Positions 2,993-24,146 of a stretch of DNA of 45,603 nt are shown piece after piece. Where the stretch lies: NCBI GenBank assembly GCA_022703565.1, contig JAKLDK010000004.1, forward strand, positions 1 to 45,603, given 5' to 3'. Source of the DNA: Candidatus Omnitrophota bacterium (GTDB lineage: Bacteria; Omnitrophota; Gorgyraeia; Zapsychrales; Zapsychraceae). The translations under genes and the position numbers were made by a program. The first letter of the stretch is position 1; every line of letters starts with the position of its first letter. The notes below the pieces were generated by a model. It saw only the letters and a program-made list of their open reading frames with translations. It did not search any database and was not told where the DNA came from.

Positions 2993-3020
2993 TTGCCAAT
3001 TCAAATACTCCTGCTATAAT
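2993..3020 (+). promoter_or_regulatory. Probable promoter of the repeat/tRNA-Arg transcript
   Basis: TTGCCA at 2993-2998, 16-bp spacer, TATAAT at 3015-3020. It lies upstream of both foldback repeats, so the predicted transcript (start about 3027) would carry both hairpins in its 5' leader before the tRNA. Read by eye. Confidence 0.5.
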
Positions 3021-3063: not shown

Positions 3064-3216
3064 GAAAATTGCGCCTGGCATTGATTTCTCTAGTGTTAAA
3101 TTAGAGGTAATCAATACAAGTGCGCATTTCATCAAGTATAAAGATTATAGAAAAATGCGCCTGCATTGATTTCGCTAGTGTTAAATTAAAGGGAATCAAT
3201 ACAAGTGCACATTTTC
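3064..3216 (+). repeat. Two tandem foldback repeats mimicking the tRNA-Arg ends
   Basis: Unit 1 is about 3064-3130 and unit 2 about 3151-3216, separated by 20 bp. Each begins with an A-rich stretch plus TGCGCCTG, runs into ATTGATT, has a central CTAGTGTTAAAT loop, then AATCAAT-ACAAGT and GCGCATTT or GCACATTTT. The ATTGATT/AATCAAT arms and the TGCGC/GCGCA ends pair in each unit; unit 1 has an extra inner CTCTA/TAGAG stem that unit 2 has lost. Unit 2 shares the 13-mer AAAAATGCGCCTG exactly with the tRNA gene's 5' flank and acceptor strand (3234-3246). The motif recurs at about 85 and 83 bp, with the tRNA as the third unit. Confidence 0.8.
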
Positions 3217-3239: not shown

Positions 3240-3313
3240 GCGCCTGTAGCTCAATTGGATAGAGCATTTGCCTACGAAGCAAAGGGTTAGAGGTTCGAAT
3301 CCCCTCAGGCGCA
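3240..3313 (+). tRNA. tRNA-Arg (anticodon ACG)
   Basis: The 7-bp acceptor stem GCGCCTG (3240-3246) pairs with CAGGCGC (3306-3312), followed by discriminator A. The D arm (TAGCTCAATTGGATAGAGC), the anticodon stem TTTGC/GCAAA with loop CTACGAA giving anticodon ACG, and the T arm with GGTTCGAATCC are all intact. CCA is not encoded. The acceptor stem can extend outward (AAT before, ATT after). The wobble A34 is the known substrate of TadA, whose gene starts 31 bp downstream. Confidence 0.95.
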
Positions 3314-4837: not shown

Positions 4838-4859
4838 ATCTAATCTAACCTAATAAGTT

Positions 4860-5047
4860 TTGGAAACTCCGCCAAATAAATATATTTGGCGAGGCAGGTA
4901 TTTGTCATGATATTGTCGAAGTAATTGGAGAGTCCGCCAAATCAGTAAATTTGGCGAGACTTGTTGTAGAATATTTAGAGGAATTAATTGGAGAGTCCGC
5001 CAAATGAGTAAATTTGGCGAGACTTCTCCAAAATTTCTAAAGAAATT
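4860..5047 (+). repeat. Three tandem foldback repeats preceding tRNA-Ser
   Basis: Units start at 4860 (A), 4925 (B) and 4988 (C), with spacings of 65, 63 and then 60 bp to the same word at the tRNA (5048). Each contains TCCGCCAAAT, a short loop, then ATTTGGCGAG, forming a hairpin with one bulge. Units B and C begin TTGGAGAGTCCG; the tRNA gene begins TTGGAGAGGTGCCG, so the first six tRNA bases GGAGAG plus two flanking Ts are reproduced. In unit C the outer TTGGAGA also pairs with TCTCCAA (5025-5031), imitating an acceptor stem. Unit A is the most diverged (TTGGAAACTCCG). Confidence 0.8.
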
Positions 5048-5054
5048 TTGGAGA
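5025..5054 (+). repeat. Perfect palindrome running into the tRNA-Ser acceptor strand
   Basis: TCTCCAAAATTTCT (5025-5038), two As, then AGAAATTTTGGAGA (5041-5054): a 14-bp perfect stem with a 2-base centre. The last five bases of the right arm (GGAGA) are tRNA-Ser nucleotides 1-5, so in the precursor RNA this hairpin and the acceptor stem are mutually exclusive. Confidence 0.85.
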
Positions 5055-5138
5055 GGTGCCGGAGCGGCTGAACGGAGCTGCCTGCTAAGCAGTTGACCTG
5101 GGTAACTGGGTCCTCGGGTTCAAATCCCGACCTCTCCG
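5050..5138 (+). tRNA. tRNA-Ser (anticodon GCT)
   Basis: Acceptor strand GGAGAGG (5050-5056) pairs with CCTCTCC (5131-5137), discriminator G at 5138. The anticodon stem GCTGC/GCAGT encloses the loop CTGCTAA, anticodon GCT (codons AGC/AGU). The long variable arm (GACCTGGGTAACTGGGTC) is typical of class II serine tRNAs, and the T arm holds GGTTCAAATCC. CCA is not encoded. Its 5' five bases are shared with an upstream palindrome, and a partial copy of its 3' end lies 133 bp downstream. Confidence 0.95.
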
Positions 5139-5140
5139 TT

Positions 5141-5174
5141 TTATTTGAAAAGCCCTTTCTGGCTTTTCAAATAA
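5141..5174 (+). terminator. Strong hairpin just after tRNA-Ser
   Basis: TTATTTGAAAAGCC (5141-5154), a 6-base loop, then GGCTTTTCAAATAA (5161-5174): 14-bp perfect stem starting 2 bases after the tRNA. No U-tract follows on this strand, so it may be a terminator of non-canonical type or a 3'-processing hairpin. Confidence 0.5.
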
Positions 5175-5256
5175 AAATAAGATGACATGATGAACCTATG
5201 CATAACATGGGTTTTGACTGAGCGAAGCGAAGAAACCCCCCATAAAGAAGTGAGGG

Positions 5257-5270
5257 AATCCGACCTCTCC
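5257..5270 (+). repeat. Partial copy of the tRNA-Ser 3' end
   Basis: AATCCGACCTCTCC repeats the tRNA-Ser 3' strand (AATCCCGACCTCTCC ending at 5137) with one C missing. It lies 133 bp downstream, just ahead of the beta-lactamase gene. It could be a recombination scar or another tRNA-derived repeat; no integrase gene is seen nearby. Confidence 0.6.
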
Positions 5271-5301
5271 ACATCAATGTTTGAAAAACGGAGGCATACT
5301 T

Positions 5302-6087
5302 ATGAAACGAATTATCTTGTTTTTTTGCTTGATTTTAATGCCCGCAGTTTTGAATGCTCAAGAAATTGACAAATCGCTTTTTAAAAATTATGATACAGCT
5401 CTTGTAATTTATAACCGCTCTTCGCAAGAGACTATCAATATAGATTCTACCCTAAGCGCTCGTCGGTTATCACCTTGCTCAACTTTTAAAGTTTATAATA
5501 CGTTAATTGGTTTAGAACTTGGTTTGATTCCAGGTGCGGATAACCCGTGGTATAAATGGGATGGGATTAAGCGTGATATATACGGTTGGAACAATGATTT
5601 AACGCTTCGCGAAGCTTTCAAGGTATCTGCTGTACCGGCTTACCAGATTTTGGCACGACAGATTGGTGCTGAGCGAATGAAAAAATACATTGAAGAAATT
5701 AATTATGGGACAAAAGATATCTCGTCTGGCATTGATACATTTTGGTTGCCAAGAGAGGGTAGCAACTCAATTTTAATTAGTGCTGATGAGCAGGTTGAGC
5801 TTTTGAATAAACTTCTAGACGGAAAATTGCCATTTGAAGAAAAAAACGTGGCAATATTAAAAGATGTAATGAAGGTTGCTGAAACTGAGAATGGAAAACT
5901 TTATGGCAAGACCGGGTCGGGTATGAATATTGACGGGAAATGGTCTTTAGGCTGGTTTGTCGGTTTTCTTGAGCATGGTGAAACAACATATGTATTTGCC
6001 TGCAATATCACCGGCGGAGAAAATCCTTCGGGAAAATCCGCCCGGGAAATCGTTGAAAAATATTTTAAATCCAAAGGACTACTTTAA
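5302..6087 (+). CDS. Class D (OXA-type) beta-lactamase
   Basis: Serine beta-lactamase, expected to hydrolyse penicillin-type substrates in the periplasm. The ATG at 5302 is chosen because GGAGG lies 8 bases upstream and gives a clean 19-residue signal peptide (MKRIILFF... ending LNA). Class D landmarks in the 261-aa protein: S60-T-F-K63 (nucleophile and the lysine that is carbamylated), S109-A-V111, W148 in the DTFWL segment (the tryptophan that supports the carbamylated lysine), ISADEQVELLNKL, and K203-T-G205. The usual YGN box reads YGT (135-137), a small departure. A 3'-like tRNA-Ser fragment lies 31 bp upstream of the start, but codon usage looks like that of its neighbours. Substrate range cannot be told from sequence. 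Confidence 0.92.
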   Translation: MKRIILFFCLILMPAVLNAQEIDKSLFKNYDTALVIYNRSSQETINIDSTLSARRLSPCSTFKVYNTLIGLELGLIPGADNPWYKWDGIKRDIYGWNNDLTLREAFKVSAVPAYQILARQIGAERMKKYIEEINYGTKDISSGIDTFWLPREGSNSILISADEQVELLNKLLDGKLPFEEKNVAILKDVMKVAETENGKLYGKTGSGMNIDGKWSLGWFVGFLEHGETTYVFACNITGGENPSGKSAREIVEKYFKSKGLL

Positions 6088-7874: not shown

Positions 7875-9605
7875 ATGAAAAAGATTCAAAAGCTTCCCTT
7901 AGCAGTTATTTCCTTGATTTTAACCATACCCTTTTCTATTTCTTATGCCCAGACCCCTCCGGCAAGCCAAACTGGCGGCGGGCAATTGCAACAAATAAAA
8001 CAAATTGAAGCGGGACAAACTATAGAAAAAACAATTACTACTGAAAAAGCTTCTGAGGGAGAAGAAATAACTCCTGACATTATTCCGGAAGATGAGGGAG
8101 AGAAGGTATTAATTAATAAGATTTTAGTTGAAGGCGCAACTCTTTTGTCTCAGCCGGAAATTGACAAGGTTATTTCGCAATTTTTAGGAACAGAACTTTC
8201 TTTAAAAGGTATGCAAAGAGTTGCGGATTTGTTAACTGACGAATATCGCAAAAAAGGCTATGCCACGTCACGTGTTTATATACCTCCGCAGACCATGAAA
8301 GAGAATACTCTTATTTTGAGAGTAGTCGAAGGCAAAATGGGTTCATATGAAATAAGAGGAAATAAATATTTTAAAACGGCGTTATTAGAGAAAAAATTAA
8401 ATTTAAAGCAAGGCGCGTATTTTGATTATGGACAATTGCAAAAGTCTTTAACATATATTAATGAGCATCCGGATAGAAATGCCAAGGCTGTTTTAGTCCC
8501 GGGAAAAGAACCGGGAACAACTGATTTAGTTATTGAAGTAAAAGACCGTTTGCCAGTTCATATCGGGTTTGAATATGATAATTTTGGGTCAAGATATGTC
8601 GAAACAAACCGCTGGTCAAAGGTCTTTGAACACAACAATCTTTTAGGTTTTGATGACAAGGCTTACTTTAAAATGCAACGTTCCGAAGACACTCTTTCCA
8701 GGCTTAAGCACGGGCGTTATTCTTTCCCGGTCAATCCGACTCTTGATGTCGGTATGTATATTGTTAATACTACGACCAAATTAGGAAAAGAATATATTAA
8801 CCTTTCTTCCCGAAGCTATGCCTTTGTCGTCGGTGTATTTGCAAACAAAATGCTTTATTCGGATGATGTCTTAGATGTGCGTTTTAATTTGGGGTATGAT
8901 TATAAGAATATAGAAAACTATTTGTTAGATGCCATAAGTTCAACTGATAATGTCCGGGTTTTAAAAGGCGGCCTTGATGTTGATTTCAATGATAAATGGG
9001 CGAGAAATATTTTAACTATGGAAATTGATACTGGTTTGCCTGAAGTTATGGGCGGTATGCATGCCAAGAGCGATTCATCATCTCGCGGCGGTGCTGGTGC
9101 AGGCGGGCGTTTTGTTAAGCTGTATGGTAACTACTATCGTTTGCAACCATTTTATTTAGATACAAATTTGTTGTTTAAAAATACTTTTCAATTCTCAAAT
9201 TATGATTTAGTAGCATCTGAACAATTCCAAATCGGCGGCCCGGCCTCAGTCCGCGGATATTCACCGGCGGAATTCTCCGGAGATAAAGGAGCTTATTCTT
9301 CGGTTGAATGGTCTATGCCGGTATATTTATTAGGTAAAAAGACCAAAGTACCTTTCACCAAAAATACCTCGTTTTACGATTCTTTAAAATTCGTTACCTT
9401 TTATGACTGGGGTACAACTCATGTCAATACTGTTTTGGCTGGTGAGAAGAAATACCGTAATTTAAGCGGATGGGGTGTAGGAGTAAGATTTAACCCTAAC
9501 GAAAATATTTCGTTGAGAGTTGAATTTGGTTATCCGTTAAATGAATATAATCCCTCAGACGATAAAAATGTCCGTCCCTGGGTTGAAGTTATAACGAAAT
9601 TTTAA
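7875..9605 (+). CDS. TpsB outer-membrane transporter (ShlB/FhaC family)
   Basis: Two-partner secretion pore that recognises the TPS domain of its exoprotein and moves it across the outer membrane. 576 aa: signal peptide (cleavage after A25, SISYA-Q), a Q/T-rich linker, POTRA domain 1 about 76-150 (INKILVEGATLL ... ILRVVEGKMG), POTRA 2 about 152-225 (YEIRGNKYFKTALLEKKLNLKQG), then the beta-barrel. The barrel's conserved loop-6 motif V459-R-G-Y462 is present (GGPASVRGY), and the protein ends in the expected aromatic residue (EVITKF). The partner exoprotein gene follows 145 bp downstream. Confidence 0.93.
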   Translation: MKKIQKLPLAVISLILTIPFSISYAQTPPASQTGGGQLQQIKQIEAGQTIEKTITTEKASEGEEITPDIIPEDEGEKVLINKILVEGATLLSQPEIDKVISQFLGTELSLKGMQRVADLLTDEYRKKGYATSRVYIPPQTMKENTLILRVVEGKMGSYEIRGNKYFKTALLEKKLNLKQGAYFDYGQLQKSLTYINEHPDRNAKAVLVPGKEPGTTDLVIEVKDRLPVHIGFEYDNFGSRYVETNRWSKVFEHNNLLGFDDKAYFKMQRSEDTLSRLKHGRYSFPVNPTLDVGMYIVNTTTKLGKEYINLSSRSYAFVVGVFANKMLYSDDVLDVRFNLGYDYKNIENYLLDAISSTDNVRVLKGGLDVDFNDKWARNILTMEIDTGLPEVMGGMHAKSDSSSRGGAGAGGRFVKLYGNYYRLQPFYLDTNLLFKNTFQFSNYDLVASEQFQIGGPASVRGYSPAEFSGDKGAYSSVEWSMPVYLLGKKTKVPFTKNTSFYDSLKFVTFYDWGTTHVNTVLAGEKKYRNLSGWGVGVRFNPNENISLRVEFGYPLNEYNPSDDKNVRPWVEVITKF

Positions 9606-9750
9606 TAGCCGAGACAAGTTTTTTTTGCTTTTTGGCTAAACATATTTTATACTTTCTAAACAAGTGGAAAAGAAAATTCTTTCTCTCGCAAAATTTACAT
9701 TTCCAGTTCATATAAATATATAGTAAAACATAATTTAGGAGGATTTTTTA

Positions 9751-12700
9751 ATGTTAAAACGGTTAATTTCTTTGCTGACTGTAGTTTTTTTCATGCTTAC
9801 GGTTGTTTGCCCGCCGGCAGTATTCGCTAATCCCGAAGATCCCAACGTTGTAGTTGGCGATGTTACATTTGAAGAATTGATGAATCAGTTAAACATTAAT
9901 ATCAACTCACAGCAGGCAATAATCGAATGGATTTCTTTTTGTATCGCTAACGGAGAGACTGTTAATTTTAATCTGCCAAACTCATCTTCAATAGCCTTAA
10001 ACAGAGTAGTTGGTATGGATCCTTCCTATATATTGGGCAACCTTATTTCCAACGGACAGATTTTTCTTATTAATCCTAACGGTATTTTATTCGGAGCGAA
10101 TTCGAGAGTTGATACGGCTGGGCTAGTTGCGTCTACTTTAAACATATCAAATGACGACTTTTTAGCCGGAAGGTATACCTTTTACGGCCCTGGTGGTTCT
10201 GTTGTTAACCAGGGAATTTTATCTGCTCCGGGTGGATATGTAGCTCTTTTAGGAAACCGGGTTGAGAATTCAGGATTAATCACATCTCAACTGGGAACTG
10301 TTGCGCTTGCTGCAGGTGAAAAAATCACATTAGGTTTAGACCCGCAAGGATTAATTAGTGTTGTTATCGAAGAAGCAGTTACGCAAAATGCTGACGGGGC
10401 ATCTGATGCTGTTTTAAACTCCGGTACGATTCAGGCTAATGGCGGAACAGTTATTTTAACAGCCGATGCTTTAAATGGTGTTTTTGATAATGCGGTAAAT
10501 AACGCCGGAATTATAGAGGCGAGAGGGCTGGAAAACAATAATGGCGAAGTACTATTGTATTCGCAGGGAGAAGAGTCGGTTGTTACTAATACCGGGATAA
10601 TTGATGTTACTGCAATGGAAGCAGGAGCAGAAGGCGGGCATGTTGAATTGAGCGGAGGTATCTTAAATTATGAAACAGGTACAGTAAATCTTGGCGGAGG
10701 TTCAATACTTTTTGACCCAACAAACTTTTTCATAGGAGATATTGCTGAACTAGTTTTGCAGTTGTTAAACGGTGATATTACAATAACTGCCAGCAATAAT
10801 ATATATCTTATGCTGGGTAGTTTGGGCGGGGATGACATTTTAAATTTATATAATATTACCGGCGGAGAAACGTTTACTTTATTGGCAGGAAATAATATAT
10901 TCTTTAGCAATGATACGATTGTGACAAACGGAGGAGATGTAAATTTACTAACTGATTTGACCGGCTGGTATGGCTGGGGAACAGGATGGGTTAATTCCGA
11001 TGGCAATGGTACTGTTAACTTGGGGACCGGCGGCGGAGTTATTACCAATGGCGGAAACATAAACATTGATACTAATGATATCATTTTATCGGCAGCTTTG
11101 GATGCGGGTAGTGGTGATATCACGATGGTGGTTGATAATGATATCGTTGATTCACACAGCGGGTTAGACATTATTGCCAACAGCTTGTCGATATATGCTT
11201 CAAACGGCATCGGCTCTAATGATGCTATTGAAACTGCTGTATCAGAAATACTGCTAGCGAATTATTCCGCAGGAGATATTAATATCGATAATGATGGAGC
11301 GTTGAGCGTCGCAGGAATTAATAATGCCGGAGGCAGTGTAGCTATTAATGCTTATTCGCCCATTACAGTAAACGGCGATGTCATTTCACTAGACGATATA
11401 ACTTTAATTGCAAATGGTTCGGATGGAGATTTGACTGTTAACGCCGATGTCATTTCCACAAATTCCGGTGAAGTTTATCTGGAAGCGGGTAATGACTACA
11501 TCCAAAACGGCGATTCTTCAGTGCATTCGGACTATTCCGTAAGGCTCTTAGCCAACAATGATATCGTTATGAATGATAATGCAGCTATTACTGCGGGATT
11601 CCTGGGAATAGCGGCCTTAAATAATATGACAATGAATGGAGGCTCGGTTATTGACAGTAACGGTTTTGATTTCCTTCATGTCGGGAATGATTTGGTAATG
11701 AATGATAGTTCGTCTGTTCAAGGCGCACTAGATATTCTAAATGTCGGAAACGATATGACGATGAATGGCTCTTCAAGCCTTGACGCGATTGGGGTATTAG
11801 TTACGGTAAACAACAATTTAACGATGAATTCAATGTCCTCAATTAATGGATCGCTAGGGTTAATGTTCATTGGCAATGATATTGTTATGAATGGCAATTC
11901 GGCTATTGATGTCGGTGATATTGATATTGACATCGATAATGACTTGGTAATGAACGATAATAGCCAAATACTATCAGATGATTTAAATATTAATGCTGGC
12001 AATAATGTTTATCTAGGTGAAATTGTTAGCAGCTATACTAATATTTCTGCTGGTGGTGCAATCCTTGATAACAATGGTAGCGACACCAACATATATGCTG
12101 ACGATCTTGACTTAGAAGCTAACAACGGCATTGGTTCTGGAGATGCTTTGGAGACAGCAGTTTCAAATTTACAAGCCAGCAATATTTATTCCGGTAATAT
12201 CGAGATTGATAATACCGGGGCTTTAAATATTTATGGAAACGGCGTTATTAATGAAGCCGCCGGAGGCAGCATTATAATTTCAACAGCTTCTCCATTATAT
12301 GTAATTGATGCGCCGATATCAGCTGACGGGGATGTTATATTATCAGCTAATGGTGCCAATGGCGATATCTATACGGGTGGATGGCAGGAACCGGCAATTG
12401 AATCAATATCTGGAAATATAATCTTAAGCGCGAGTAACGATATTTATTTAGGTTATGGCGGATATGGCGACCTAAACGCGTTTAATGGTAGTATTTATTT
12501 AAATGCCGTTAACAATATTACAACAGATAATGATTGTTATGTCTTAATCGGCGATGGCGAAATAGTTTTTGGAGCCGGAAATGATATTAATATCTTGTCA
12601 ACTTCATGGATACATTCTAATTTGGGAAATATCAGTTTCCAGGCTGGAAATGATTTTTATCAAGTGGCAACAGCTGAAATAGCAACAGAAGGTGGCAGCG

Positions 12701-13812
12701 TATTTGCCGGAGCTGATATGGACGCTGATGGTAATGGTGGATTTACTCAAGAAACTGGCGCCGCGATTGTTTCCAACGGAGGGAACATATCTGTCCAGGC
12801 CGGCGTATTTGAATATACCGGCGGAGAAAATATATTCCTAAGCTTACTTGATGCCGGTACCGGTAATGTATTTATCGGGTCAGGATTAGGTGCTCTGATT
12901 GATAACAATGGCGACAGTGTAAATATTATTGCCAATGAATTGGATATTTGGGCCGCTAATGGAATCGGCAGCAATGTCGATGCCTTAGACTTAAATGTTA
13001 ATTACTTAACGGCTTACACCGATGGCGATATGTTTACCAACGAATTAGACGGAATAGTTTATGGTGACATAACATCCGGCGGGCAAGTTAATTTGTTGTC
13101 CAACGGTTTTACTTCGATTAACGGCGATATCGTCGGTAATGATTTCGTTACTGTCCGGACACAAAATGACGATTTATATTTTGACGGCGGATCAGTACAA
13201 TCGCTTAATTCGGGCGTTGGAATTACGACAGATAACGGAGATATTTATGCTTTAACCGAAGGGCCACATGTTATTGCTAACGGTGATTCGTTTATCAGCG
13301 CGCCATTTGGTAAAGTTACTCCGGGATTATTCCCCTTAGATGTTTTTATCAATGGTGATTTATTATTAAATATTTCCAATCTCGATGTTTTGATTCCGAC
13401 ATTCCAAGTTTACGGAAACTTAATCGGTACGGTAAATGGGACAATAGAGTTTCCATTATTGTTCCCAACTAGTTTTCCGGCTCCGTTAAATCCTCCGGGA
13501 TTTGTGTATTTTAACGGGACTCAAATTTGGCCGCCGACCAGTAATGCGATTTTCCAATTGATGGCTAACGCGGCATCGACAGTATTTACGAGAAATTATT
13601 TTGAATTCTTGAATGATTACCGTTATGTAGCTGCTGACACCGCAACGCCGCAATTCTACCTATATCATCCGCTTAACGAAACTGACTCAGCGGCTTTTGA
13701 TGGTATTGGGTTAGATGCCGATGCTTACGAGTTTATCGAAGACAATATTAAATCAAAACGTCAAATGAGCCCATATTATGGTTCAGAAGCAGAAGGGCAA
13801 ACACAAGAATAA
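9751..13812 (+). CDS. TpsA exoprotein with filamentous-haemagglutinin N-terminal domain
   Basis: 1353 aa, preceded by AGGAGG. Signal peptide (about 1-26, ending VFA-NPED), then a TPS secretion domain with the hallmark N108-P-N-G and the GLVASTLNIS segment. The rest is Asn/Gly/Asp-rich short beta-strand repeats typical of a right-handed beta-helix. Three longer modules share NGIGS-(DAxET)-(V)S followed by a GDINID/GNIEID stretch (around residues 485, 790 and 1070). A compact array of ~21-residue units occupies 602-750. The C-terminus is not hydrophobic or anchor-like (ends KSKRQMSPYYGSEAEGQTQE), so the protein may be released or held by TpsB. Cysteine content appears very low, usual for TpsA. 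Role in adhesion is family knowledge, not shown here. Confidence 0.9.
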   Translation: MLKRLISLLTVVFFMLTVVCPPAVFANPEDPNVVVGDVTFEELMNQLNININSQQAIIEWISFCIANGETVNFNLPNSSSIALNRVVGMDPSYILGNLISNGQIFLINPNGILFGANSRVDTAGLVASTLNISNDDFLAGRYTFYGPGGSVVNQGILSAPGGYVALLGNRVENSGLITSQLGTVALAAGEKITLGLDPQGLISVVIEEAVTQNADGASDAVLNSGTIQANGGTVILTADALNGVFDNAVNNAGIIEARGLENNNGEVLLYSQGEESVVTNTGIIDVTAMEAGAEGGHVELSGGILNYETGTVNLGGGSILFDPTNFFIGDIAELVLQLLNGDITITASNNIYLMLGSLGGDDILNLYNITGGETFTLLAGNNIFFSNDTIVTNGGDVNLLTDLTGWYGWGTGWVNSDGNGTVNLGTGGGVITNGGNINIDTNDIILSAALDAGSGDITMVVDNDIVDSHSGLDIIANSLSIYASNGIGSNDAIETAVSEILLANYSAGDINIDNDGALSVAGINNAGGSVAINAYSPITVNGDVISLDDITLIANGSDGDLTVNADVISTNSGEVYLEAGNDYIQNGDSSVHSDYSVRLLANNDIVMNDNAAITAGFLGIAALNNMTMNGGSVIDSNGFDFLHVGNDLVMNDSSSVQGALDILNVGNDMTMNGSSSLDAIGVLVTVNNNLTMNSMSSINGSLGLMFIGNDIVMNGNSAIDVGDIDIDIDNDLVMNDNSQILSDDLNINAGNNVYLGEIVSSYTNISAGGAILDNNGSDTNIYADDLDLEANNGIGSGDALETAVSNLQASNIYSGNIEIDNTGALNIYGNGVINEAAGGSIIISTASPLYVIDAPISADGDVILSANGANGDIYTGGWQEPAIESISGNIILSASNDIYLGYGGYGDLNAFNGSIYLNAVNNITTDNDCYVLIGDGEIVFGAGNDINILSTSWIHSNLGNISFQAGNDFYQVATAEIATEGGSVFAGADMDADGNGGFTQETGAAIVSNGGNISVQAGVFEYTGGENIFLSLLDAGTGNVFIGSGLGALIDNNGDSVNIIANELDIWAANGIGSNVDALDLNVNYLTAYTDGDMFTNELDGIVYGDITSGGQVNLLSNGFTSINGDIVGNDFVTVRTQNDDLYFDGGSVQSLNSGVGITTDNGDIYALTEGPHVIANGDSFISAPFGKVTPGLFPLDVFINGDLLLNISNLDVLIPTFQVYGNLIGTVNGTIEFPLLFPTSFPAPLNPPGFVYFNGTQIWPPTSNAIFQLMANAASTVFTRNYFEFLNDYRYVAADTATPQFYLYHPLNETDSAAFDGIGLDADAYEFIEDNIKSKRQMSPYYGSEAEGQTQE
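11554..12000 (+). repeat. Seven ~21-residue beta-helix repeats inside TpsA
   Basis: Residues 602-750 consist of seven units of 20-22 residues, each starting N-(N/D)-(D/M/N)-(I/L/M)-(V/T)-M-N-(D/G/S) and followed by small polar residues and a hydrophobic stretch. About one beta-helix turn per unit. In DNA the word AATGAT...ATGAAT recurs at 60-66 bp. Confidence 0.85.
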
Positions 13813-24070: not shown

Positions 24071-24146
24071 TCCCCTGTAGCTCAGTCGGTAGAGCGGTTG
24101 GCTGTTAACCAATAGGTCCGAGGTTCGAGCCCTCGCGGGGGAGCCA
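24071..24146 (+). tRNA. tRNA-Asn (anticodon GTT), CCA encoded
   Basis: Acceptor TCCCCTG (24071-24077) pairs with CGGGGGA (24136-24142) with one T-G pair; discriminator G then CCA (24144-24146) is encoded, unlike the Arg and Ser genes in this window. The anticodon stem TTGG/CCAA encloses the loop CTGTTAA, anticodon GTT. D arm (TAGCTCAGTCGGTAGAGC) and T arm (GAGGTTCGAGCCCTC) are intact. Confidence 0.96.

Follow-up and report, generated by a model that had tools for sequence, protein, structure and literature searches.

Polar copies of tRNA ends, separated by palindromes and occasional GIY-YIG genes, flank many tRNA genes across Candidatus Omnitrophota

The window analysed here is a stretch of 45,603 nucleotides, contig C120 of a 1.87-Mb Candidatus Omnitrophota draft genome (G000), and it carries three tRNA genes: Arg(ACG) at 3240, Ser(GCU) at 5050 and Asn(GUU) at 24071. 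Repeat arrays lie at tRNA-Arg and tRNA-Ser, and tRNA-Asn(GUU) has no array. All features described below are on the forward strand. In the Ser array, hairpin units starting at 4860, 4925 and 4988, followed by the word TTGGAGAG at 5048 (spacings of 65, 63 and 60), were re-found as given in the preliminary description of this DNA. The intact tRNA-Ser(GCU) spans 5050–5138; its mature 5′ end is G5050, and the TT before this base belongs to the leader. The view that the units carry the 5′ word of the tRNA holds for units B and C, both of which contain its first six bases (GGAGAG), and fails for unit A (4860–4897), a CTCCGCCAAAT..ATTTGGCGAGG hairpin whose start (TTGGAAACTCCG; TTGGAAAC) lacks this word and which is just 69% similar to unit B. 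Unit B (4925–4964) consists of the leader TT, the acceptor strand GGAGAG, a CCGCCAAAT..ATTTGGCG hairpin and a degraded 3′ arm, AGACTTG. Unit C (4988–5029), with the structure GGAGAGTC-CGCC..GGCG-A-GAC-T-TCTCC, is the conserved Ser module, in which 12 bp are base paired in all nine aligned leaders. Over 45 nt, units B and C share 96% identity.

At the RNA level, unit C is predicted to fold as GGAGAGUC-CGCC..GGCG-A-GAC-U-UCUCC. Its 3′ arm and the following linker have a near-perfect alternative pairing with the leader and 5′ end of tRNA-Ser, giving a linker hairpin at 5023–5056 (CTTCTCCAAAATTTCT / AGAAATTTTGGAGAGG) whose 3′ arm is the leader plus the 5′ acceptor strand of the tRNA. The predicted RNA fold of 4855–5139 is much stronger than those of shuffled sequences (z = −7.06), and in the minimum-free-energy fold the tRNA acceptor stem stays formed. 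A strong palindrome (TTTTATTTGAAAAGCC..GGCTTTTCAAATAAAA) occupies 5140–5177, immediately 3′ of the tRNA, and further on, at 5257–5270, the 3′ end of tRNA-Ser recurs in degenerate form (AATCCGACCTCTCC, where the tRNA itself reads AATCCCGACCTCTCC), a copy absent from the preliminary description. Several downstream 3′ copies (among them window 5225–5256 and loci L169, L205 and L206) share a tGAGCGAAaGCGAAACC-like hairpin before a T-arm remnant. Searches of the window with Rfam returned three tRNA matches only, with no rtT match, and no T-box covariance-model match. Further along the window, 5281–6087 encodes a PF00905 protein with an STFK motif that resembles a class D beta-lactamase or a sensor domain, and 7875–13812 holds a two-partner secretion pair, a POTRA/ShlB transporter and a 1353-aa TPS-domain protein.

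The Arg array has the same design. Unit 1 (3071–3128) contains GCGCCTG, a REP-like hairpin at 3078–3117 and the 3′ arm AAGTGCGCATTT; unit 2 (3157–3215) contains GCGCCTG, a REP-like hairpin at 3163–3202 and the 3′ arm AAGTGCACATTT; and the intact tRNA-Arg(ACG) follows at 3240–3313. Upstream of the array lies a sigma-70-like promoter (2993–3020; TTGCCA-16-TATAAT, matching the consensus at 11/12 positions, with a TG). Judging from this consensus match, the Arg array is probably within a transcribed leader; no promoter as good was found upstream of the Ser array. The bodies of the two arrays are unrelated, as had been proposed: a covariance model of the Arg-type hairpin matches both Arg hairpins, and 4860–5029 is not among the matches listed.

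The preliminary description had suggested that a tRNA's own first bases recur in the repeats upstream of it, and a scan of all tRNAs indeed finds the own 5′ 7-mer enriched over mismatched tRNA-leader pairs. In G000, an exact copy of the own 5′-end 7-mer is present in the 350-bp upstream region of 16 of 41 tRNAs, compared with 0.8 expected from mismatched pairs and a maximum of 5 tRNAs in 2000 permutations of these pairs. A stricter test that masks other tRNAs and anchors the 7-mer at tRNA position 1 gives 10/41 in G000 (0.39 expected), 4/23 in G001 (0.52 expected), 6/35 in G012 (0.34 expected) and 10/33 in G018 (0.72 expected). In G004 and G008 the signal is weak or missing, so that the pattern, although general, is patchy. 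The shared design with unrelated sequence, in which the intact tRNA comes last, likewise recurs as anticipated, at Ala, Arg, Asn, Gln, Gly, Met, Phe, Pro, Ser, Thr, Val and other tRNAs, in several families.

The strongest result of our analysis is the polarity of these copies. When 11-base words from along the tRNA were sought on both flanks with at most one mismatch, the 5′-end word was found upstream of 21 of 192 tRNAs in seven genomes (0.7 expected) and downstream of 1, and the 3′-end word was found downstream of 15 of the 192 (0.4 expected) and upstream of 0. An independent sample drawn phylum-wide from outside the order (151 tRNAs, 89 loci) has 5′ words upstream in 9 cases and 3′ words downstream in 21 (0.6 expected for each), with 1 case of each opposite combination. 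Our analysis as a whole covers draft metagenome-derived assemblies that are all from Omnitrophota, with several loci read by eye, and a literature search of incomplete coverage found no earlier report of the pattern in this phylum. In E. coli, the tyrT/rtT tandem repeats lie beside a tRNA and carry part of it. The Omnitrophota arrays resemble these repeats in adjoining a tRNA and containing part of its sequence, and differ in comprising both upstream copies of 5′ ends and downstream copies of 3′ ends. The idea of a 5′-only counterpart of tyrT must thus be given up, as 3′-end copies are equally specific downstream, including at the window tRNA-Ser.

Of 50 units, 19 have a copy that ends exactly at tRNA position 7, where the acceptor strand finishes, and 23 have one that ends at positions 8–12; the rest end at 13–19, with one at 29. 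The sequence after the copy end is usually a palindrome. Leaders are poorly conserved and most k = 7 units lack a leader duplication; in some units (G001 Arg, G012 Pro and Phe) the leader is also repeated. At several loci, longer partial tRNA copies (Thr, Phe, Pro, Glu) have palindromes placed with precision in a D, anticodon or T loop. In G000 (C151, L006/L034) and G004 (C11, L191), a split outer tRNA-Gly encloses an intact tRNA-Gly(UCC) within its anticodon loop, with the inner and outer sequences swapped between the two genomes; G012 C179 (L136) has the 5′ side only of this nested arrangement. Hairpin density is moderately higher at copy-bearing than at other tRNAs (1.78 versus 1.25 per 250 nt, p = 0.002). 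Within units, own-arm pairing occurs 11 times compared with 1.6 expected (score ≥6, strict cutoff), and hairpins of at least 9 points that join upstream sequence to the leader and acceptor strand occur at 16 of 159 tRNAs compared with 3.1 expected. Two candidate readings were rejected: complete tRNA shells, for which tRNA-3′-like strands in upstream units are just modestly enriched (24 versus 15.1 at an edit distance of ≤2), and tRNAs present only in interrupted form (introns), as a search of G000 for split genes for His, Glu(UUC), Ile and Ala(UGC) found none.

The Ser module is specific to tRNA-Ser and conserved across families. The word GGAGAGYCCGCC occurs 13 times in six genomes, and 11 of these occurrences are in tRNA-Ser leaders, including one before a truncated tRNA-Ser; the other two are isolated and have no hairpin. 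This word is thus not the general repeat independent of tRNA-Ser that had been raised as a counter-explanation. Matches to the Ser-leader pattern are confined to Candidatus Omnitrophota records. An alignment of nine Ser leaders from several genomes has hypervariable tips in both hairpins, whereas there is almost no variation in the outer arms, in the AAAATTT..AAATTTT linker or at the start of the tRNA. Across these leaders the 12 pairs of the unit stem are formed in 100% of cells, with one U-A/C-G covariation, and the 14 pairs of the competing linker stem in 99%, with one covarying pair. At one Ser locus (G008 C54:7700, L061), the module precedes a tRNA-Ser that is truncated near the anticodon, and a GIY-YIG gene lies just upstream.

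The Arg-type hairpins have a different character. Twenty-five hairpin bodies from different tRNAs can be aligned and share a conserved TTNTCTRA..AAGGTA core and a 7-bp stem with double changes at every pair (44 cells) and 1–2 G-U; this near-exclusive Watson-Crick exchange is as expected for DNA palindromes. Among the matches listed for G000, the Arg-type covariance model hits tRNA loci only. The same model has at least 99 matches in G012 and at least 83 in G018; many of these are not at tRNAs, and inverted pairs are frequent, so that the spacer hairpins are dispersed palindromic repeats in the sister genomes and not a tRNA-specific RNA. In addition, a composite of about 125 bp seems to have jumped, apparently inserting with a duplication of about 2 bp, as read by eye from two pairs of copies. 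The dispersed, often inverted copies and this apparent insertion mark the Arg-type body as a REP/BIME-like mobile palindrome. Like REP/BIME elements, these are imperfect palindromes of about 40 nt, present in about 80–100 or more copies per genome (G012, G018) and often in inverted pairs. Unlike them, the listed G000 matches are confined to tRNA loci, the arms at tRNA loci copy tRNA ends, and the Ser body stands outside the Arg hairpin family, with no match listed at 4860–5029. The Y1 transposase domain PF01797 was not found in G000 and is present in all six relatives, a domain-level match that does not distinguish the RAYT subfamily. A genome-wide linker motif, TTCTRNAN{3,14}AAGGTAA, was rejected: it has 10 matches compared with 4 in a reversed control, just some of them at tRNAs. 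At G012 C71:1031-1249 (L274), away from any tRNA, alternating palindromes are arrayed in tandem with an identical 88-bp period.

Small GIY-YIG genes clearly occupy the same niche as the hairpin fillers. In seven genomes, 8 of 27 non-UvrC loci have a small GIY-YIG ORF within about 125 bp of an intact tRNA, for which the chance estimate, from about 40 tRNAs per ~2 Mb, is well under one. Phylum-wide, 16 of the best-scoring 29 GIY-YIG loci have a tRNA within about 1.5 kb, inside the ~3-kb locus, with an estimated 2 or so expected. In G004, tRNA-Glu copies (1–29, 46–60) are followed by a GIY-YIG gene and the intact tRNA-Glu, and a tRNA-Gln copy (1–31) by a GIY-YIG gene and the intact tRNA-Gln. In G012 (C159:17141 and 17539, L308), two identical 398-bp units, each a GIY-YIG gene and then the 5′ part of tRNA-Gln, precede the intact tRNA-Gln(CUG) beside hairpin-type units, and G018 has the mirror form, an intact tRNA-Val, a GIY-YIG gene and a Val 3′ copy. 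From the tRNA side, GIY-YIG genes are rare: they lie at 2 of 36 copy-bearing tRNAs compared with 4 of 156 others in the seven genomes (p = 0.31), and at 2 of 29 compared with 1 of 122 outside the order (p = 0.09). The association is not significant, and the tRNA side thus gives no support for GIY-YIG genes as a general cause of the arrays. No GIY-YIG gene was found near the window tRNA-Ser.

A precedent for such genes comes from phages T4 and T6, in which SegB is a free-standing GIY-YIG homing endonuclease at tRNA genes with the reported motif RAWTSGAAC (PMC13096335, PMC2988022). Experiments on the T6 enzyme have shown that it cleaves DNA within tRNA genes and causes a 718-bp tRNA+segB unit to be amplified in tandem (PMC13096335). 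By our reading, the SegB motif would be the complement of the tRNA T-loop sequence GTTCSAWTY. The Omnitrophota loci resemble the phage system in that a GIY-YIG gene adjoins tRNA genes, lies between a target fragment and the intact target (G004 Glu and Gln, G012 Gln and, in mirror form, G018 Val), and forms tandem units with tRNA sequence (G012 Gln). In contrast to SegB, the Omnitrophota case involves a bacterial chromosome, partial tRNA copies and putative cleavage, and has gaps filled mostly by hairpins, with no GIY-YIG gene at the window Ser and Arg loci.

Starting from the polar copies, the types of filler, the conserved Ser module and the base-paired arms, all directly observed, we lean towards an insertion or repair process at tRNA genes, acting throughout the phylum and always leaving one tRNA intact, of which the window array would be one case. 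DNA would insert at or within a tRNA gene, or a break at the gene would be repaired, such that one complete tRNA is kept and a 5′ fragment is left upstream, a 3′ fragment downstream, or both. The gap would be filled by palindromic REP-like hairpins or occasionally by a small gene of the homing-endonuclease (GIY-YIG) type, and repeated rounds would yield tandem units with the intact tRNA last. We infer that breaks or insertions create the copies, that a GIY-YIG nuclease or another enzyme may make the breaks, and that surviving arms may persist since, when paired to one another, they do not trap the tRNA 5′ end. Breaks or insertions resolved with one intact tRNA would explain the polarity, the filler, the tandem growth and the tRNA-last order, and the 3′ copies, dispersed hairpins and GIY-YIG fillers argue for such a process rather than a rule with a known function. 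This suggests that mobile DNA or faulty repair repeatedly reworks the edges of essential genes with one copy left whole. Several observations are at odds with this proposal. Random duplication breakpoints do not predict copies that end at exactly position 7 (19/50) beside poorly conserved leaders. Selection or recent spread is suggested by the Ser arms, which do not vary across families although the tips do. GIY-YIG genes are rare from the tRNA side, and all listed G000 body-hairpin matches are at tRNAs. Decay alone does not explain the position-7 stop and the invariant Ser arms, which call for either structure-guided insertion or selection for paired arms.

A role in regulation is the main competing account, and one that we consider doubtful: the array would act as a leader RNA in which the unit and linker hairpins are mutually exclusive, the linker form hides the leader and the tRNA 5′ strand, and co-transcriptional folding or RNase P processing is thereby controlled. 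Both the unit stem and its competitor are kept in the nine Ser leaders (12 pairs at 100% and 14 at 99%), upstream-to-acceptor hairpins and own-arm pairing exceed expectation as given above (16/159 versus 3.1; 11 versus 1.6), a good promoter precedes the Arg array, and the fold of 4855–5139 is strong; a regulatory role through alternative pairings with the tRNA 5′ end is thus possible. However, the Ser stems show very little covariation, presence is patchy between close species and isoacceptors, the body stems have almost no G-U pairs and are dispersed repeats elsewhere, the minimum-free-energy fold keeps the tRNA acceptor stem formed, and the downstream 3′ copies and GIY-YIG fillers are left unexplained. 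We are also skeptical of a further version, in which domesticated mobile palindromes and self-derived acceptor copies would form a conserved leader switch with two exclusive folds, one hiding the tRNA 5′ end, so that tRNA output is set by a cis RNA rule that many isoacceptors share despite differing sequences. Functional arms would represent a new type of tRNA leader.

Ordinary tandem-duplication slippage, with one breakpoint in the tRNA and one in the flank, would place 5′ copies upstream and 3′ copies downstream, with hairpins then accumulating in the dead copies. This would account for the polarity without any enzyme, and it fits the units in which the leader is also repeated (G001 Arg, G012 Pro and Phe) and the two identical 398-bp units at G012 Gln. 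We nevertheless find it improbable, given that most k = 7 units have no leader duplication, that ends cluster at exactly position 7, that precise hairpins interrupt partial copies at tRNA loops, and that a split outer tRNA-Gly encloses an intact one. Very improbable, in our view, is an origin as remnants of integrase-mediated island insertion with att duplications at tRNA genes. As attB is usually at tRNA 3′ ends, the downstream 3′ copies, the commoner class outside the order (21/151), fit this origin; it leaves unexplained the 5′ copies upstream, the tandem 60–85 bp units and the hairpins at copy ends, and the copies lie within 350 bp of the tRNA, with little room for an island.

Under the insertion or repair process that we favor, a homing- or break-driven origin would show selfish DNA repeatedly invading essential genes without killing the host. 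Independent of origin, a statistically strong polar self-copy pattern exists at tRNA genes throughout a poorly studied phylum, and it connects the borders of essential genes with dispersed palindromes and with GIY-YIG genes. Rickettsia palindromic elements are mobile hairpins inserted into genes, and the split tRNA copies resemble them in having precise hairpin insertions inside gene-like sequence; the Omnitrophota hairpins differ in always lying beside a restored intact tRNA and in having locus-specific arms. At one further locus (G015 C11, L056), a near-complete tRNA-Ser copy lies directly 5′ of the intact tRNA-Ser, with TCCGCC..GGCGGA hairpins in its D and anticodon loops.
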